A stretch of DNA of 64,000 bases from a virus, in the IMG/VR virus record IMGVR_UViG_3300046536_000256, positions 62,001-126,000 of that record; one strand, written 5' to 3'. Within the stretch, counting starts at the first letter, position 1; every line of letters begins with the position of its first letter. Shown here in pieces: positions 35,244 through 47,557 of the stretch. Below the pieces are notes generated by a model. It saw nothing but the letters and a program-made list of their open reading frames with translations. It was not told the origin of the DNA and did no database searches. Made by a program: the position numbers and the translations under genes.

Positions 35244-35282
35244 CCCCCACCCATGCCTTCCTTAACGGGGGCATGGGTAGGG
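35244..35282. terminator. Bidirectional hairpin between convergent genes
   Basis: ACCCATGCC (35249-35257) pairs with GGCATGGGT (35270-35278), extended on both sides by further CCC/GGG pairs. It serves the + strand 975-aa gene and the - strand gene at 35289. On the - strand it is followed by TTATGTTTGCAA. Confidence 0.75.
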
Positions 35283-35288
35283 AGTTAC

Positions 35289-36026
35289 TTACATCGTTAC
35301 TTCACGGTTGTCCGTCATGTCAACGAAGTTTTCCAGGTACGCGGCAAACAACAGCGAGAGTTCCGTGACCGCACCCAATGTACTGGAGCGCCAATCAACA
35401 TCGCCCAAACTGAGGCTGTATTTGTACGGGAAGTTTTCTTCGATAAACTTAGCGTGAGCCTTGTCCACCAAGTTTGGGATGTTCTCCAGGAACAGGTAGT
35501 CACCGTTTTCAACGCTTTCCACGGAAGGGCTAAGGTCACCCCATTGCTTTGGGTCAGGATCCAGCAACTGCGTTTTGATCTCGTACACGCCCCAATTAAC
35601 AAAGCCCATGTAACGAGACACCTGAGCTTTGAGGGTGTTGAGAGTGAACGCCGCATCCTGACACGCCAGGTTCTTCGAGTTGATGTCATCCAGGATGGCC
35701 TGAACCTTCTCGGAGATGTACACCCCGGCAGCCTCAAAGTACTTCTGGGCTTGTTCCGTAGCGATGGTATCGCTGATGCGCTTGTCGAGACCTTTGTTCA
35801 GGATGACCTGACCGTTCTCTTTCGGGAAGCTGTCGAACAGTCGGAGTTTGATTTCCGACGCTTCGCGCACAGGCCAGAAACGGTTAGCGACTTCACAAGC
35901 TTCCTTGTAAGAGACGCCTTCCTGGAGCTGTTTAACCAGATCCTTCATCGCAGCGGTGGAGTTGGTCATCTCGGCGTGCGCCGCGTTACGCAGCTCAACG
36001 AGTTGAGTCAAGCAAATGTCGGTCAT
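35289..36026 (-). CDS. Hypothetical helical protein, 245 aa
   Basis: Not recognised. Strongly alpha-helical and charged (NSTAAMKDLVKQLQEGVSYK), no membrane segment. Its start overlaps the stop of the internal-head-type gene upstream by 4 bases (ATGA), so the two are coupled; a partner or chaperone of that protein is possible. Last gene of the operon. Confidence 0.75.
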   Translation of the reverse strand: MTDICLTQLVELRNAAHAEMTNSTAAMKDLVKQLQEGVSYKEACEVANRFWPVREASEIKLRLFDSFPKENGQVILNKGLDKRISDTIATEQAQKYFEAAGVYISEKVQAILDDINSKNLACQDAAFTLNTLKAQVSRYMGFVNWGVYEIKTQLLDPDPKQWGDLSPSVESVENGDYLFLENIPNLVDKAHAKFIEENFPYKYSLSLGDVDWRSSTLGAVTELSLLFAAYLENFVDMTDNREVTM

Positions 36027-37552
36027 ACCATTTTCCCCCAGCCAGTTTGTTTGGAGAAGTTATTCAGCGTGGTTTTAACACCACCGAAGTCGTTCTTGAT
36101 GATGGTCTCAACGACCGCGGCATTCTTCTCGCCGAAGGTCTTTGCGTCCGCTTCTTTGATGAACACCATGTCGCGAGCGTAGGCGTAACCTTCCGAGTCA
36201 CCGAAACCAGCATGACCTTTAGCCCGTGCCTGCATCACCAGGTTCGCCGCTGTCTCTACTTCGCCCAACAGGCCGTTGTAGTAGTAGGCGTGCGCGCGGT
36301 TGTACCAGTCCGCCAAGTTAGATGCCTGGCGTTCAACGATCAACAGCGATTGCGAGATGCTGTAACAGAACTGAGAGAAGTTCCGTACGTCCGCGGCCAT
36401 CACCTGATACATCTGAGCCAACGCCGGGTAATTGTAGAAGCCAGCAATCTCATTGATCTTGTCGGCCTCACCCTTGTCGATTACCGAAGCCAAGTCCTTA
36501 AAGTTGATCTTGGACAGGTCAGCGGTGTTCTCGGTGATTTCAATGTACCGCGTGTTGAGCGCCTGGATGCTGTGCAGGATAGTCGAGACATCCTGTTTTC
36601 TCACCTTAACCATCTCGGTGACCACAGTCTCCTGGATCTTCTTGCGGCAATTGCTGAAGCCGCTCTGAAGCTCGTCGTTGCTGAACTTGATGTTGTACAG
36701 TGTTTCATACAACTTGCTGACCAAGCTGGCCACAACGTCGACATCAAGGCCCAGCACCACTTCGTTAATCTCCTTGGTCAGGCGGTTAACTTCAGGGGAC
36801 ATACTCACCGAGGTCTGCAACGCAGGGTTACCGGCACGCACACGGGTCTTGGTGTATTCCTTGCTAATCAATGCCTTAAGCGATTGATTGTTCTTGGCCA
36901 CCTTGTCCGTGATCTGACCCAGCTTAGCCATCGCCTGTTGCAGCAGTGGCATGGCTTCGATCAGACTGTCAATGGCGCCTTGGTCCGTTTCGAACTTGCT
37001 CTTCAGCAGGGTCAGCTGCGCGATCCGGTCCTGGTTAGGCGGCAGGTTCATCAGGAAGTTTTCGAGGTTGTATTCACTGGCGGGGAAACCCAGGCCACTG
37101 AGTACAGTAACGAACTCTTGCTTCAGTTTACCCAGGTCGTCGTTGATCGCCTTGTTGATACGGGCGCTCTTACGGAAACCAAAGATCCCTTTCACCGTGT
37201 CGACCACCCAGTCCACCGCCATGCGGATGTACTTGATGATGTTCTCGATAAAAGCCTTGAAGCCATCCTTAATAGCGCTGAAGAAACCTTCCTGACCAGC
37301 ACGGGCATTACGCTCAGACGGGAACGGGTCGTAGTTCTCGTGGTTTGCCAGTTTGAAGTGAGCCGCTACACGCTTGGAGAACTTACCCAGTTGCATGCTT
37401 TCAATGCCGCTGACCATGACGGTTGCATCGTCTTGCTGGGTTTCTTTGTAGTACTCGGTCAAATCAACGCGTTGTTTGCTGGTGCCCGGCTCATACGAAT
37501 CGTCCGGGTGACCAGTGGCGATCTGTTTGTATGTGTCCAGGTAATCACTCAT
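36023..37552 (-). CDS. Internal-head-type protein, 509 aa
   Basis: The frame opens at 37585, but the ATG at 37552 (MSDYLDTYKQ) overlaps the upstream stop by 8 bases and is preferred. GQE-GF at residues 86-90 is a clear prohead-protease site, followed by FSAIKDGFKAFIENIIKYIR, the amphipathic helix seen in the whole family; a second site GIE-SM lies at 49-53. The body is a long helical, Lys/Asn-rich domain. Inner-body role inferred from the phiKZ family. Confidence 0.75.
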   Translation of the reverse strand: MSDYLDTYKQIATGHPDDSYEPGTSKQRVDLTEYYKETQQDDATVMVSGIESMQLGKFSKRVAAHFKLANHENYDPFPSERNARAGQEGFFSAIKDGFKAFIENIIKYIRMAVDWVVDTVKGIFGFRKSARINKAINDDLGKLKQEFVTVLSGLGFPASEYNLENFLMNLPPNQDRIAQLTLLKSKFETDQGAIDSLIEAMPLLQQAMAKLGQITDKVAKNNQSLKALISKEYTKTRVRAGNPALQTSVSMSPEVNRLTKEINEVVLGLDVDVVASLVSKLYETLYNIKFSNDELQSGFSNCRKKIQETVVTEMVKVRKQDVSTILHSIQALNTRYIEITENTADLSKINFKDLASVIDKGEADKINEIAGFYNYPALAQMYQVMAADVRNFSQFCYSISQSLLIVERQASNLADWYNRAHAYYYNGLLGEVETAANLVMQARAKGHAGFGDSEGYAYARDMVFIKEADAKTFGEKNAAVVETIIKNDFGGVKTTLNNFSKQTGWGKMV

Positions 37553-37958
37553 GGCGGCCCACCAGTTCGGCCAGCAGGAATTCAACCAGCACGCTGAACT
37601 CTTCGTTCTGAGTGATGTCCACGCCTTCGGTACCCTCGACCACGACCACAGTGGTGAAAGGTTCAGGCAGACGGCCCTTGGTGATCAGTGCAGCACGCAG
37701 GGAGGCCATGCGGTACTTGACGGTTTCGAAAACAAACGGACCGTTGATCGGCGAGATTTTGTTCCAGCGGTCCAGTTGTTCCCAGACAGCTTGTTCTTCG
37801 TCAATGCTCAGGCCGATGCTCGAGCTGAACTTGAAGTGCTTGCGGATGATGGCGGTGGCGTAAGGTTCCAGAGCAAACTTCGCCAGTTGTTCAGGGCAGG
37901 TGATCCCCAAGCTGATCAGTTTGTTCTTGTAGTCGGCAACATGCGGCAAATGAGACAT
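37545..37958 (-). CDS. Hypothetical protein, 137 aa
   Basis: Not recognised. The frame opens at a GTG at 38012, but the ATG at 37958 (MSHLPHVADYKN) has AGGAG 9 bases upstream and is chosen. Mixed alpha/beta with a hydrophobic strand (EPFTTVVVVEGTEGVD). Coupled by overlap to the downstream internal-head-type gene. Confidence 0.75.
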   Translation of the reverse strand: MSHLPHVADYKNKLISLGITCPEQLAKFALEPYATAIIRKHFKFSSSIGLSIDEEQAVWEQLDRWNKISPINGPFVFETVKYRMASLRAALITKGRLPEPFTTVVVVEGTEGVDITQNEEFSVLVEFLLAELVGRHE

Positions 37959-41310: not shown

Positions 41311-42303
41311 TTACTTCACGTAGTTGGTTTTCAGCCAGTTACTGAATTTGACGCAGTCACTAATGGCGTCTTCCAGGTACTGGTTGAGTTTGACCAGTGC
41401 TTGCAGGAACTCTTTACCAGCGGCCAAATCGCTCTTAAGCTTAGGGAGTTCCTTGTCATTCTTCTTGGTAGCCTTGACACGTTTCTCCAGATCGCTGATC
41501 GCGCTTTGCAGGTTGCTTTTGATACGGTCCAGCGGAACACGCGCATCCTTCATACGACCTAGGTACTTCTTGACCTCGAACTGGCTCTCGAGTGCTTTAA
41601 CAAAGCCGTCAATCGAGATGGCCTTGCGGAGTACCTTGTCTCGATCAACGTGTTCCATTTTGCCCAAGGCGATGTGCAGCTCGTCGTGAAGATTTTCGAA
41701 AGTAGTGCCTTTATACTTCCCTTCTTCGGACGGGTCGGCGATGGCGGTCAGCTTCTGGCTGGTGCGCTCGGCTTTGTCGACCAAATCGCTAAGCTCAGCG
41801 CGGCGCTTACCATTCATAGCCTCCCATTCTTCTTCTTCCTTCTTCCACTTAGCGTCACGTTCCGCTTTCTTCTTGGCCGCTTCCTCGTCGTCAGCCTTGT
41901 TTTCAGCCTTATTCTTGGCGATTTGGTCATCAAGTTCTTGATGACGCTTCTTCATTTCCTCGGCGTTACTTTCAACGCGAGTAATGGCGGCGGTTTCTTT
42001 CTTGGCAATCGCATCGTCGCTGCTACCGAAGAAGAAGTTCCAGATTCCCTTGAAGAGCTTGGCGATGAAATCCCAAACAGCCTGAAGACCATTGCCGATC
42101 GCCCCGAAGAAGCTCTCGTTACCAGCAACTCGTTCAGCACGAGAGAGCGCGCCATCTGCTTCCAGGATGGAGTAAACGTAAACCTGAGCAGGCACCAGGG
42201 AATAACTTTCCGAACCGTTCAGCCGATCCAGAGAAGCTGTCAAAGCATCGAAAGCCATACCAACGTGGCCTGCGTCCGAAACACCGTAATCTTCATTGCT
42301 CAT
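41311..42303 (-). CDS. Internal-head-type protein, paralog 1, 330 aa
   Basis: One of three adjacent paralogs. An N-terminal acidic propeptide contains GSE-SY (30-34) and then GNE-SF (61-65), followed by the amphipathic aromatic helix FGAIGNGLQAVWDFIAKLFK and a GIWNFFFG end. The body is a long Lys/Glu-rich helix (KNKAENKADDEEAAKKKAER) likely to form coiled coil. In phiKZ such proteins are processed in the prohead and packaged with the DNA; here this is inferred. Last gene of the 44555-to-41311 run. Confidence 0.75.
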   Translation of the reverse strand: MSNEDYGVSDAGHVGMAFDALTASLDRLNGSESYSLVPAQVYVYSILEADGALSRAERVAGNESFFGAIGNGLQAVWDFIAKLFKGIWNFFFGSSDDAIAKKETAAITRVESNAEEMKKRHQELDDQIAKNKAENKADDEEAAKKKAERDAKWKKEEEEWEAMNGKRRAELSDLVDKAERTSQKLTAIADPSEEGKYKGTTFENLHDELHIALGKMEHVDRDKVLRKAISIDGFVKALESQFEVKKYLGRMKDARVPLDRIKSNLQSAISDLEKRVKATKKNDKELPKLKSDLAAGKEFLQALVKLNQYLEDAISDCVKFSNWLKTNYVK

Positions 42304-42319
42304 GATGTAACCTCGTGAA

Positions 42320-43411
42320 TTAAGCGTGCGCCATACCGAACAGGCGCATGATGGTTGTACTGATCTGCTTCAGGCCTTCATCGCAGGTTTCAATCTGCTT
42401 GGCCAGGCGGGTGGTCAGACTCAGGAAGATCTTGCACGCGGTCAGGTCCTTACGGAACTGGGCTTCTTCGGCCGAGTTCCCTCGTTTACCAGCGATAGCG
42501 ACTTGCTTCTCGAGCAGCTTGACCTTGCTGATAATCGGACCCTTCTGCGCCACGATGAACAAACGCTGACCACCTAGGTCAGTGTGCAGCATACGCGTGA
42601 TGATAGTCTGCGCCGCGATTGCATCTTTGAGGTTGTGGATCCTCGAGAACTCAGCGATGTCGAGCCCATTGGAATCTTGCAGGTCGGTGTGGAAGCTGTG
42701 GTACATCGACTCGAATTCAGTACCCGCGAACTGAGCAGACTCGTCCTTCATCACCATGGTGTTGAAGTCTTCGGTGATCTTGTTCACCCGGGTTACCTGC
42801 TCAATCAGGTGTTGCTTCTGACGGCGGTTCAAACGACCAACTGCTTCGGCGACTTCCTTAACAGCGTGGGCTTTTTCGGCAGGTGTGGGGTGCTCGGGGA
42901 CCTTGTCGATAATAGCTTTCACCTGAGCGGCTTCGGCAGGCGTTGCGTCAGAGGACCCCATGAACTTATCCAGGGCCTCAACACTATCGATGTGTGCCAT
43001 CTTTGTCCAAGTGGCGTCGGTTGTCGGCGTAGGCTTGGCTACCAGCACGCTGGAGAGGGAATCCGCGTTGACCTTGACCTTGATCTCGGTCTTCTTGGTC
43101 TTCTGCTCAGCAGAGTTCTCCGAGGTGCCAAAGAAGAAAGAGGAGATGCCATTGAACATCTTCATGATGTAATTCCAGATGGCTTTCAAACCATCCCCAA
43201 TTGCACCAAAGAAACTTTCGTTACCATCCACCTTCTGCTGGTGGGTGAGGTCGTCGCCAGCGCCCAGTACTGCAAAGGCGTATTGCTGAGCCCGCGTCAA
43301 CCCAAAGCCTTCGCTGCCGGTAACACCGTCGAGGGTGTCGGTGATAGCTTCGAACATGAGTTCCAGGTGTTCAACACCAGCAACACCGTAATCTTCTTGT
43401 ACATCATCCAT
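42320..43411 (-). CDS. Internal-head-type protein, paralog 2, 363 aa
   Basis: Same plan as its neighbours: GSE-GF (32-36) in the propeptide, GNE-SF (63-67), then FGAIGDGLKAIWNYIMKMFN and ISSFFFG. The N-terminal 70 residues are nearly superimposable on paralog 3 (VTGSEGFGLT then AQ). The body has diverged and is rich in Ala, Lys and Thr. 16-base gap to paralog 1. Confidence 0.75.
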   Translation of the reverse strand: MDDVQEDYGVAGVEHLELMFEAITDTLDGVTGSEGFGLTRAQQYAFAVLGAGDDLTHQQKVDGNESFFGAIGDGLKAIWNYIMKMFNGISSFFFGTSENSAEQKTKKTEIKVKVNADSLSSVLVAKPTPTTDATWTKMAHIDSVEALDKFMGSSDATPAEAAQVKAIIDKVPEHPTPAEKAHAVKEVAEAVGRLNRRQKQHLIEQVTRVNKITEDFNTMVMKDESAQFAGTEFESMYHSFHTDLQDSNGLDIAEFSRIHNLKDAIAAQTIITRMLHTDLGGQRLFIVAQKGPIISKVKLLEKQVAIAGKRGNSAEEAQFRKDLTACKIFLSLTTRLAKQIETCDEGLKQISTTIMRLFGMAHA

Positions 43412-43425
43412 GGTGGATTCCCCAG

Positions 43426-43438
43426 TTAAGCAAATATA
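43426..43438 (-). promoter_or_regulatory. TATATTTGCTTAA element
   Basis: On the - strand TATATTTGCTTAA lies between the hairpin at 43448-43477 and the ATG of paralog 2. It resembles the TATGTTTGCTTG elements at 6097 and 11387 in sequence and position, though it has TATA in place of TATG. Confidence 0.3.
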
Positions 43439-43447
43439 AAGGAATAG

Positions 43448-43477
43448 GCCGGGATAACCTTTTACAGTTATCCCGGC
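43448..43477 (-). terminator. 11-bp hairpin between paralogs
   Basis: GCCGGGATAAC (43448-43458) pairs perfectly with GTTATCCCGGC (43467-43477) around an 8-base loop, just beyond the stop of paralog 3. Confidence 0.7.
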
Positions 43478-43487
43478 TTAACGGTTG

Positions 43488-44555
43488 TTACAGGCAGAAC
43501 ACGCGCTTGGTGGCCTTTTTCAAGGTCAAGATGTCTTCGACGCTGGTTTTGACGTGGTGAGCGAAGCCGCTGCAATACGCCAGGATCACGCGCAGTTGAC
43601 CCAACAGAGTCGTTGCGGTTTTGTTTTCGGCGGTGGACTCTTTCAGCTGTTTCTCGCACTCGGCGATTTGCTTGGAGATGGTGTTCTTCTGATCGTTCAT
43701 CGCCTTGACCGCTTTCTTGGCCTCGTCGATGTCGTTGATCATCGCCTGAGCAACGCTCTTGGCTTTGTTCAGATCGCCCAGCTCTTTGATTTCTTCCAGC
43801 TGGTCCAGGAATTTCTTGCTGGCCGTGATGAACGGGTTCATCTTCTGGAACATTTCCCAAGCCAGACCGTGTTCAGCCCCGCCGACCATGGACTTCTTCT
43901 TGGAGTCTTCATGGAACGCCAGGAGTTTGGTCAGCTTGTCAACAATGCGCTGGACAGCCTTGACGAAAGCGGCTTGGCCATCTTTGTTGAACTTCGGCGC
44001 TTCATGGCCGATCATCAAGATGACTTCTTTCTGCTCGGCGGGAGTTTTGGCTTTCTTCTCGCGTTCCAGCAGGCTGTTGACGATGGTCAGTTCGGCGCCA
44101 GTGGCGGTTTGCGCGAGGGACTCGAGGCGACCTTTCATGGTGCTGATCTGGTCGGCGATTTCTTTCTCGCTACCCTTGCCGATCTCGTCGAGCTCTTTCT
44201 TGAACTCGGTGACGTCTTCTTTGGCTTTGTCGAGCAGAGCCGGGGCGTCACGGTTGAAGAAGAAACCCCACAGGCCTTTGAACATCTTGACGATGTATTC
44301 GTAGACCGATTTAGCGCCGGTGGCGATCGAACCGAAGAACGATTCGTTACCGCCGACCGAGCTGGCTTTGATAGCACCGCTGGCCATCAGAACGCCTTCA
44401 GCATAACGCTGAGCTTCGGTCAGACCAAAGCCTTCACTGCCGGTAACACCGTTGACAGTGTCGTCCAGTGCATCGAACATGATCTCGATGTGGGGACGGT
44501 CACTGACGTCAAAGCCTTCGTTTTCATCACCTGGAGCAATATCAAGAGGATCCAT
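43488..44555 (-). CDS. Internal-head-type protein, paralog 3, 355 aa
   Basis: GSE-GF (39-43) and GNE-SF (69-73) mark the likely propeptide cuts; FGSIATGAKSVYEYIVKMFK and GLWGFFFN follow as the mature amphipathic helix. The body is Lys/Glu/Ala-rich helix with Lys-Lys pairs. The gene is GC-rich with restricted codons, suggesting higher expression than the two paralogs. It is separated from paralog 2 by its own terminator. Confidence 0.75.
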   Translation of the reverse strand: MDPLDIAPGDENEGFDVSDRPHIEIMFDALDDTVNGVTGSEGFGLTEAQRYAEGVLMASGAIKASSVGGNESFFGSIATGAKSVYEYIVKMFKGLWGFFFNRDAPALLDKAKEDVTEFKKELDEIGKGSEKEIADQISTMKGRLESLAQTATGAELTIVNSLLEREKKAKTPAEQKEVILMIGHEAPKFNKDGQAAFVKAVQRIVDKLTKLLAFHEDSKKKSMVGGAEHGLAWEMFQKMNPFITASKKFLDQLEEIKELGDLNKAKSVAQAMINDIDEAKKAVKAMNDQKNTISKQIAECEKQLKESTAENKTATTLLGQLRVILAYCSGFAHHVKTSVEDILTLKKATKRVFCL

Positions 44556-45371: not shown

Positions 45372-45890
45372 TTACAGTTTCCCCATCCCTGCCTTTCTTG
45401 CCAACTCCAGAATTTCCTTCTCCTCTTTAGAGAGTCCAGCTTCCGGAGGTGTTGCATCGGCATCGGCTTTGGAACGTTGTGCTTCGCCCTCACTGATCGC
45501 CAGCACCAAGTCGTCCACTAAGAAAGCTGGTAGGTTCAGGTAGTCATGAAGGGGAATCACATCTTTCAACTTAGCCCGTCCGTAGTACTTACCAATGGCA
45601 TTAATCGACCACGGGTGTACAAACTCATTCTCCTTTTTAATGAAGGCAACTGAAGAATGCGGGTTAAGCTGAGATCGGTCGTAATACCCCATGTTGAAGT
45701 CATGCAGTATCCCCTCTTGGAAGTCCAACGACTCTGGTCGGTCCAGGTGTGTCGGAAGTCCAAGAAGGTTGTTGTTTACTACATGAAACTCATCGCTGAA
45801 GTGTCTCTCGAAATCTATTCCGAGATGGCTTCTTTGGTCGCGGCTGCCGCTTCGGCCGCTTGAGTCATCAGCTTCAACTGGGTAAGGGTA
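45372..45890 (-). CDS. -1 frame extension of the 580-aa protein (172 aa)
   Basis: This frame is open from the slippery site to the stop at 45372 and lies exactly -1 relative to the 580-aa gene. Between the last in-frame stop upstream of the T-run and 45728 it has no ATG, GTG or TTG; the first possible start is a TTG at 45728 without a convincing ribosome site. Yet the sequence before that TTG looks coding (FERHFSDEFHVVNNNLLGLP). The simplest reading is a fusion made by -1 frameshifting at codon 556, giving 728 residues. The C-terminal part has an aromatic segment (VHPWSINAIGKYYGRAKLK) and a Leu/Val helix (AFLVDDLVLAISEGEAQRSK), recalling small baseplate-hub assembly proteins of T4-like phages. 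Confidence 0.7.
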   Translation of the reverse strand, partial: YPYPVEADDSSGRSGSRDQRSHLGIDFERHFSDEFHVVNNNLLGLPTHLDRPESLDFQEGILHDFNMGYYDRSQLNPHSSVAFIKKENEFVHPWSINAIGKYYGRAKLKDVIPLHDYLNLPAFLVDDLVLAISEGEAQRSKADADATPPEAGLSKEEKEILELARKAGMGKL

Positions 45891-47557
45891 AAAAAAGCCA
45901 TGAACGGGTCGATCGGGGTGTAGCCAAAACGACGGTCAGGGTCCTGGAACTCTTCGGTCCGCTTCTTGCACACCGGGCAGTGGTAGTTAGCCACAGCAAC
46001 GAAGGTGTGCGCCATCTGCGGCGATTTGTTCAGGATGAAGGCAGAGAGGGTCTTGTTCAGCTCACGGCTATCCAAGATCACGTCCATACAACCCTTGTTG
46101 AATTCGGACGCTTCACATTCCGAACGCTTCAACACCAGGTCTTCTTCGTCAGTACCCGGCGCGCCCACCGACACGTAGGTCTTGATCCAGTGCAGGAACT
46201 CAGTCGCACCCAGGGTAGTCAACAGCAGAGCGACCTGAGTCTTGAACTCTTTCTCGTCGATAACCTTGGAGCGAATTTCCTGGAGCTGTGGGTTGATACG
46301 ACCGGCGTAGTAGTCGTAGGTTTCGAACGCTTCAGCCATCGACGAAGGACCGACTTCGAAGTAGATCGACTTGTCAACGTTGTAGACCCGATTGCTTTCC
46401 AGGCCGTAGGTCGACTTCTCGATCATTTCCAGCGTCTGCTCAACGGTGTACTTCGCATTACCGTTGTACAGGTTGGCGTAGATCGCCGACTCTTCCGGAG
46501 TTTCGATGCTGTGACGCACACGCACCAGCTTGTCCGGATCACTGACCTGGAAGTCAGACCAGTCGCACTTGTCGTTCAGGCAACGCAGCTGGAGGTTGAC
46601 CCCGTGACTGTGGGTCGAGCGCAGCAGTGCCATGCAGATGGTGCCGAAGTCGCTGAACCGCACAACCTGAGACAGGTCCTTGAAGTCAACGATACCAGTG
46701 ACCGAACTGTTGACGATACGTGCCGCCAAGAAGTCCCAGACCACACGCATGCCAGCCATGACCGACAGAGTGACACTGTTACCGCCCACGGTACGCACGT
46801 AGCCTTTAACGGTACGGTTGATGTCGTTGACCAGCGCTGCCAGTTCCAGCTTGCTTGGACGGGTGAAGGTCAGCATGCAGTACGAATCACGCAGCAACAC
46901 GTCGAACTGGAATTCACCGTTCTCAGCACGCATCGAAGAACGACGCATTACTTCAGAAACAGAGAACCCTTTCGACGCACGACTTGGCTTCTTGCCCAGG
47001 ATGTCCGTGGTAACAATGTTGCTGCCACGGTCACTGACGTTGGAGATACCGTCTTCGTTCATGACCTTGGAACGGATCTTGATGCTGTCGACGTACTCTT
47101 CCATGAAACGGTAGAGGTCGCCGCAGATCTGCTCCATTTCTTCAGCAGTCTTGTCGGCGTGGCTCGCTTCCAAGTACTGAGCCCATTCGTTCTTGGTCGA
47201 CGCCAGCATGCCATCCGACGCTTGGCCTTGTTCGTGCAACGACTTCATTGCAGTCGTTTGCAGCCACTTGGACAGCAGGATGTTGGCACGCTCGTTGCAG
47301 TCACGAGAGTTACCCAAGAAGATCGGAAGGTAGCCGAGTTGTTTGTCCTCTTCAGTACCAGGACGAATCAACTCAGAGACCGAAGGCAGGATCTTCTTCA
47401 TCGGGGTGTTTTCAGCGGTGTGGGTTTCGCCGAAGCTGGCTTCTGCCACCGGAGCGGCTGGGGCCACTGGGACCACCGGCACTGGGGAGGCTTCAGCTGG
47501 ATCTTCCGCAACCCCGGCTTGCGTGGTGTTCGCCGGGTTGTTCTCTTGTTCACTCAT
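45815..47557 (-). CDS. Baseplate-hub or tail-assembly protein with Cys pair, 580 aa
   Basis: The N-terminal 60 residues are a Pro/Ala/Val-rich linker. Residues about 60-530 are globular, with Cys pairs suited to metal binding (CLNDKCDW, and HCPVCKKR near residue 523). The end, PDRRFGYTPIDPFMAFFTLT, resembles the C-terminus of T4 gp26-type baseplate-hub assembly proteins, where a Cys-rich strand is followed by a Pro-rich FF segment. A 7-T slip site at codon 556 probably diverts a fraction of ribosomes into the -1 frame, in the manner of tail-assembly chaperones. AAGGAAA precedes the ATG. The function is an inference. Confidence 0.7.
   Translation of the reverse strand: MSEQENNPANTTQAGVAEDPAEASPVPVVPVAPAAPVAEASFGETHTAENTPMKKILPSVSELIRPGTEEDKQLGYLPIFLGNSRDCNERANILLSKWLQTTAMKSLHEQGQASDGMLASTKNEWAQYLEASHADKTAEEMEQICGDLYRFMEEYVDSIKIRSKVMNEDGISNVSDRGSNIVTTDILGKKPSRASKGFSVSEVMRRSSMRAENGEFQFDVLLRDSYCMLTFTRPSKLELAALVNDINRTVKGYVRTVGGNSVTLSVMAGMRVVWDFLAARIVNSSVTGIVDFKDLSQVVRFSDFGTICMALLRSTHSHGVNLQLRCLNDKCDWSDFQVSDPDKLVRVRHSIETPEESAIYANLYNGNAKYTVEQTLEMIEKSTYGLESNRVYNVDKSIYFEVGPSSMAEAFETYDYYAGRINPQLQEIRSKVIDEKEFKTQVALLLTTLGATEFLHWIKTYVSVGAPGTDEEDLVLKRSECEASEFNKGCMDVILDSRELNKTLSAFILNKSPQMAHTFVAVANYHCPVCKKRTEEFQDPDRRFGYTPIDPFMAFFTLTQLKLMTQAAEAAAATKEAISE
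45890..45896 (-). promoter_or_regulatory. Slippery heptamer for -1 ribosomal frameshift
   Basis: Seven T in a row on the - strand, read in frame as GCT TTT TTT ACC, a valid X-XXY-YYZ slip site, 24 codons before the stop of the 580-aa gene. A GCGGC/GCCGC hairpin can form roughly 30 bases downstream, which is longer than the usual spacing. Confidence 0.65.

Follow-up and report, generated by a model that had tools for sequence, protein, structure and literature searches.

Background

In bacteriophage lambda the products gpG and gpGT, found at a ratio of approximately 30:1, bind the tape measure protein and recruit the tube subunits, and both are absent from the virion (PMC5009743). For T4, PMC3004832 lists gp26 and gp51 among the hub assembly chaperones; their roles in hub assembly have been disputed. 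Both T4 proteins match the PF12322 family and gp51 has an extra C-terminal tail matching phrog_634; this suggests that gp26 and gp51 are the short and the long form of one chaperone, produced from separate genes. The tail assembly of the phiKZ-like phages is poorly known; in SPN3US the tape measure protein is gp239 (PMC5694885).

The locus described in this work lies in a 64,000-nt stretch of DNA (the window) from a phiKZ-like phage and consists of gene A and an open -1 frame, B, that begins within it. The first-pass annotation had pointed to seven T, read GCT TTT TTT ACC, near the end of a 580-aa gene as the site of a programmed -1 frameshift. The coordinates of the run hold (Table 1). The remaining details, i.e. 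the -1 frame open down to 45372, the absence of a start before 45728 (the earliest ATG, GTG or TTG being TTG 45728, 56 codons past the slip) and the predicted A-B fusion of 728 residues joined after codon 556, were all reproduced.

Judging from the comparative sequence evidence, a programmed -1 frameshift is proposed to join A and B in phiKZ-like phages, with a probability of approximately 0.93. Gene A and the -1 frame would then be a single translational unit. The majority of ribosomes would end at A's own stop codon to give the short protein, and a minority would slip back one base on T_TTT_TTT, with the Phe-tRNAs in the P-site and A-site re-pairing, to give the A-B fusion.

Table 1. Positions of gene A, the slip site and the parts of the -1 frame in the window
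Feature	Position	Strand	Remarks
Gene A	45815-47557	-	ORF; 580-aa zero-frame product; phrog_4585 match, E=1.2e-108
Slippery heptamer T_TTT_TTT	45890-45896	-	zero frame of A, codons 555-556; reads GCT TTT TTT ACC
-1 frame extension	45372-45896	-	174 aa from the slip codons on; stop at 45374-45372
Dual-coding overlap	45815-45889	-	final 24 codons of A and its stop; -1 reading gives the N-terminus of B
Linker of the -1 frame past the A stop	45729-45814	-	no start codon in the window phage; open in all relatives
Conserved core of B	45432-45713	-	phrog_19747 match, E=4.7e-32, residues 62-155
C-terminal CPxC motif of A (C527, C530)	45968-45979	-	Cys invariant; approximately 25 codons upstream of the slip; aligns to CPECG of T4 gp26
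Central Cys pair of A (C326, C331)	46565-46582	-	invariant in alignments

The slip site and the -1 frame in the window

The chance control on heptamer frequency covered the 64,000-nt window. An in-frame TTTTTTN heptamer occurs there a single time (53 genes, 20,442 codons), and the TTT-TTT at the A slip site is the only one among the 48 Phe-Phe pairs of the window genes. TTC makes up 74 % of the Phe codons in this genome, and the T-run is more than a product of chance.

The claim that the -1 frame is coding upstream of 45728 was borne out by tblastn, in which its homologues start at its first residue, with 49 % identity in the case of Erwinia phage RisingSun. By nucleotide comparison, the A/B pair has nearly no similarity to public phages outside a stretch of 64-69 bases over the slip site, where the identity to Erwinia and Shewanella phages is 81-84 %.

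A second heptamer of the window followed by a long -1 frame, TTTCCCC in 35253-36182, was set aside; its -1 frame enters an ORF antisense to 36023-37585. The window also contains, at 41311-44555 on the minus strand, three tandem genes (330, 363 and 355 aa) that all match phrog_21850 and look like paralogues.

Conservation of the slip site and of the frame arrangement in phiKZ-like phages

The phiKZ-like set comprised 39 loci: the window, 16 IMG/VR contigs and 22 reference phage records (phiKZ, EL, OBP, RisingSun, FishSpeaker, Miami, Aphrodite1, PS1, SXP01, CF8, pEa_SNUABM_54, sm033, SPFM16, Goslar, PhiPA3, FBKp24, Ea35-70, Moabite, Noxifer, LucasX, Yong XC31 and CR5). The loci span phiKZ, EL, OBP, Goslar, SPFM16, Vibrio and Xanthomonas phages, and 36 of them are distinct, three being near-duplicates. 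No relatives of LucasX were found in the IMG/VR search. Pseudomonas phage vB_PQ1 was omitted from the counts because of its broken ORFs: its A homologue and the neighbouring genes are split into many short ORFs, possibly through sequencing errors.

Protein searches indicated that A and B are usual neighbours in phiKZ-like phages, and the pair of profiles that they match, phrog_4585 and phrog_19747, occurs in the same gene order beside an RNA polymerase subunit gene. In 39/39 loci the frame of B is -1 with respect to that of A; past the A stop this frame runs on for at least 368 nt and the +1 frame for at most 130 nt. TTT is the first of the two slip codons in every distinct locus (36/36; log10 P = -23.5 given the TTT/TTC usage of each gene, a value overstated by kinship, as the loci were treated as independent). 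The second slip codon is TTT in 22 loci, TTC in 13 and TTG in one. The preceding base is T in 32/36, which gives the full heptamer T_TTT_TTN, and G in the remaining four (PhiPA3, Noxifer and two IMG/VR contigs).

These four loci, reading G_TTT_TTT or G_TTT_TTC, are a mild case of what the first-pass annotation had named as evidence against itself, an interrupted T-run in a phage whose two frames are undamaged. Their TTT-TTY core is kept and their -1 frame is still open; G_TTT_TTY is expected to be a weaker slip site. Otherwise the alignment of relatives strengthened the original proposal, since the same arrangement is present in all 39 loci and in SPN3US, where TTTTTTC lies 72 nt upstream of the gene 39 stop.

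In phiKZ the pair corresponds to PHIKZ077/076.4, with the heptamer beginning at 71945 (minus strand), 42 nt before the end of PHIKZ077. ATG, GTG and TTG are all absent from the first 85 codons of the phiKZ -1 frame, and the PHIKZ076.4 annotation covers just its final 80 codons. The predicted phiKZ fusion has approximately 687 aa. In relatives, too, the B core is annotated as a short gene of its own. PHIKZ152/151 was rejected as the phiKZ counterpart due to the wrong frame and the absence of the T heptamer; the profile search gave PHIKZ077.

Dual coding of the overlap

Ten members of one subgroup (the window, EL, RisingSun and seven IMG/VR contigs) were used in a synonymous-codon test. Over the 25 codons from the slip to the end of A, synonymous-codon identity at conserved residues was 1.33x that expected, the top value among all full blocks of A, and both slip codons were identical in 45/45 pairs. 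Between the window and locus L019, whose A proteins are 79 % identical, there are 4 differences in the 75-nt overlap, and divergence over the remaining part of B is much greater. Conservation of the -1 product begins with its first residues; the FF junction is followed by Y, H, R or D and then, in most loci, by P. The linker between the A stop and the B core is under weak constraint by dN/dS, a result uninformative on its own. The overlap has the pattern that would be expected from dual coding. It is at this level, the comparison of sequences, that the conserved slip site, the frame arrangement, the dual coding and the missing start signals are established.

Identity of the A and B products

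The AlphaFold model of A had a pLDDT of 85, and that of B was poor (64). Foldseek with the A model returned other phiKZ-like A proteins first, followed by entries carrying the name 'Baseplate hub assembly protein, bacteriophage T4-like'; for the top two of these the probability was 0.97-0.99, with weak E-values of 0.02-0.06. The A profile scored 26.3 against the gp26/gp51 family (maximum of 21.0 in 100 column shuffles; hhalign probability 3.8 %), and a lenient alignment of the two was colinear, with the CPxC and FF positions paired. The Pfam search of A gave no significant match and stayed below the cut-off for PF12322 (T4_baseplate); PDB sequence searches with A and with B gave nothing significant. 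Based on the weak profile match and the Foldseek likeness, A is proposed to work like the hub-assembly chaperone domain of T4 gp26/gp51 and is probably distantly related to it, but is not filed in PF12322.

The fold search with the low-confidence B model gave noteworthy matches among phiKZ-like proteins only. The score of B against the gp51 tail profile was reached by 3/100 shuffles, and a relation between B and the gp51 tail is not claimed.

A had been described as 'hub-like' in the first-pass annotation, and its predicted fold does match T4-like hub assembly proteins, but a putative hub/tape-measure assembly chaperone is preferred here over a hub subunit. Such a product would provide a candidate assembly chaperone for the phiKZ-like group, and its link to gp26/gp51 makes the relation between short and long forms testable. 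Some A homologues from Erwinia and Aeromonas phages are annotated as 'putative ZipA-like cell division protein', an assignment for which no support was found here.

Possible stimulators of slippage

A downstream RNA structure or an upstream Shine-Dalgarno stimulator is a common, though not obligatory, part of -1 frameshift cassettes. No strong upstream Shine-Dalgarno-like stimulator was found among the phiKZ-like loci, and the folding of 12 downstream windows gave no signal of a stable RNA structure (z-scores from -1.5 to +0.4). The heptamer may be sufficient alone for the phiKZ-like slip, or another stimulator may be involved. In E. coli, U_UUU_UUU is reported to be far less shift-prone than A_AAA_AAG (PMC5009743).

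Alternative explanations and the preferred one

Were B an independent gene, with translation beginning at a start of its own or resuming past the A stop (reinitiation), the -1 overlap would be incidental. Annotators put the B starts downstream of the A stop, an ATG is found 29-60 codons past the slip in several loci and the Miami record gives a ribosome-binding site for B. This explanation is nevertheless regarded as very improbable, since all 39 loci have a -1 frame that is already open at the slip, and conservation of the product sets in with its first residue, a long way upstream of the annotated starts. In phiKZ the first 85 codons contain no start codon, and Shine-Dalgarno matches of at least 5 bases are rare at possible B starts (4/39 loci, in comparison to 22/39 for A starts by the same measure). 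A separate gene would also leave the conserved TTT TTY and the synonymous constraint unexplained. As start codons after the A stop exist in many or most relatives, a minor internal B product from its own start may be made. Even less probable is an A-B fusion through transcriptional slippage, i.e. by the polymerase and not the ribosome. The polymerase could slip on a run of seven T and yield almost identical products, but many relatives carry just T6 followed by C, or G-T6, the conservation follows the codon phase, and T6 runs are short for polymerase slippage.

The ribosomal frameshift could also be real, with A and A-B acting as structural parts of the baseplate or head instead of assembly chaperones. 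In SPN3US the gene directly upstream of A (locus L144, 1442-2062) encodes gp38, a low-abundance virion protein tentatively assigned to the tail (PMC10052503), and T4 gp26 has been claimed by some as a hub component (PMC3004832). Against a structural role, the PHIKZ077 record has no structural note, whereas those of PHIKZ079/080 have one; gp39 and gp40 of SPN3US are not named in the main text of two proteome papers (PMC5694885, PMC10052503), and the PDB fold search found no counterpart of A among solved structures. The missing PHIKZ077 note and the tail assignment of SPN3US gp38 are hints consistent with an assembly role, and the structural alternative is considered unlikely.

The explanation preferred overall, and held to be likely, is that a single translational unit made up of A and the -1 frame encodes a two-product hub/tape-measure assembly chaperone. 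By analogy with the roles of lambda gpG/gpGT and T4 gp26/gp51, the A product would hold the tape measure or hub proteins, and the rarer A-B fusion would add a C-terminal domain recruiting the next component, in the manner of a G/GT-like two-product chaperone. That A and A-B work as such a device, with many A chaperones and few A-B, seems a good deal more likely than otherwise. Our inference covers the occurrence and efficiency of the slippage as well as the chaperone role and the partners.

A counterpart in T4-like cyanophages

In P-SSM2 and Syn9 a gp51-type tail is encoded in the -1 frame after gp26. The cyanophage-type set consisted of these two and 80 IMG/VR loci; in 82/82 an in-frame T_TTT_TTC lies 12 nt ahead of the gp26 stop, with the -1 frame open beyond. 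A GGAGG/GAGG/AAGG-type element is present 8-10 nt upstream of the slip, again in all 82 loci, and an upstream Shine-Dalgarno-like element of this kind stimulates -1 slippage in E. coli dnaX. Since the element overlaps conserved gp26 codons, its conservation may be partly due to constraint on the gp26 protein. Reinitiation is possible in these loci, as a start codon lies within 20 codons of the slip in 81/82. The gp26/gp51-tail pair of the cyanophages is a probable second -1 frameshift, apparently undescribed.

In T4 the FF codons of gp26 are TTC TTT and the slip heptamer is absent; the simplest reading is that T4 uses two genes for products that frameshifting supplies in the others. An ancestral two-product frameshift gene might have encoded the hub-assembly chaperone in contractile-tailed phages, with the T_TTT_TTY slip retained at matching FF codons in phiKZ-like phages and T4-like cyanophages and with T4 having split it into genes 26 and 51. 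We give this scenario an even chance; if true, gp51 could be understood as gp26 in its 'GT' form.

No earlier description of the phiKZ-like or the cyanophage gp26/gp51 frameshift was found in the open-access literature, as judged mostly from titles and passages. The scope was underestimated in the first-pass annotation: the predicted device is group-wide and has a counterpart in T4-like cyanophages. From the comparative evidence, a recoding event seems to have been overlooked in the phiKZ-like phages as a whole, phiKZ among them, with gene B entered in the annotation as a truncated orphan. If the frameshift is confirmed, entries for the fused product would correct the annotation of a few hundred phiKZ-like records (at least 208 matches in one search and 69 in another, partly overlapping) and of many T4-like cyanophages.

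Comparison with known systems

With lambda gpG/gpGT, of the -1 tail assembly chaperone (TAC) family, A/A-B would share a -1 slip located late in the upstream gene, close to its 3' end, a downstream frame dependent on the slip and two products in likely unequal amounts. Lambda G is small, whereas A has approximately 500-720 aa, conserved Cys motifs and a T_TTT_TTY slip site. A sequence relation of A to known TAC families was not found: there was no significant Pfam match, and the Foldseek matches to TAC proteins were weak (probability 0.13-0.20). The lambda-type chaperone genes lie just upstream of the tape measure gene; in contrast, SPN3US gp39/gp40 are far in numbering from gp239 and not adjacent to it.

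T4 gp26/gp51 resemble A in the Foldseek fold, in the weak colinear profile match and in the CPxC followed by FF near the C-terminus, and both systems would provide short and long versions of one domain. They differ in that T4 has two separate genes without the heptamer, and A exceeds them more than twofold in length and has no Pfam match. The gp26 gene of the cyanophages differs from A in the position of the slip, only 12 nt before the stop, in the Shine-Dalgarno-like element found in 82/82 loci and in the added tail of mostly 60-67 aa; it resembles A in its in-frame T_TTT_TTC, its downstream frame at -1 and its FF junction at the matching position.
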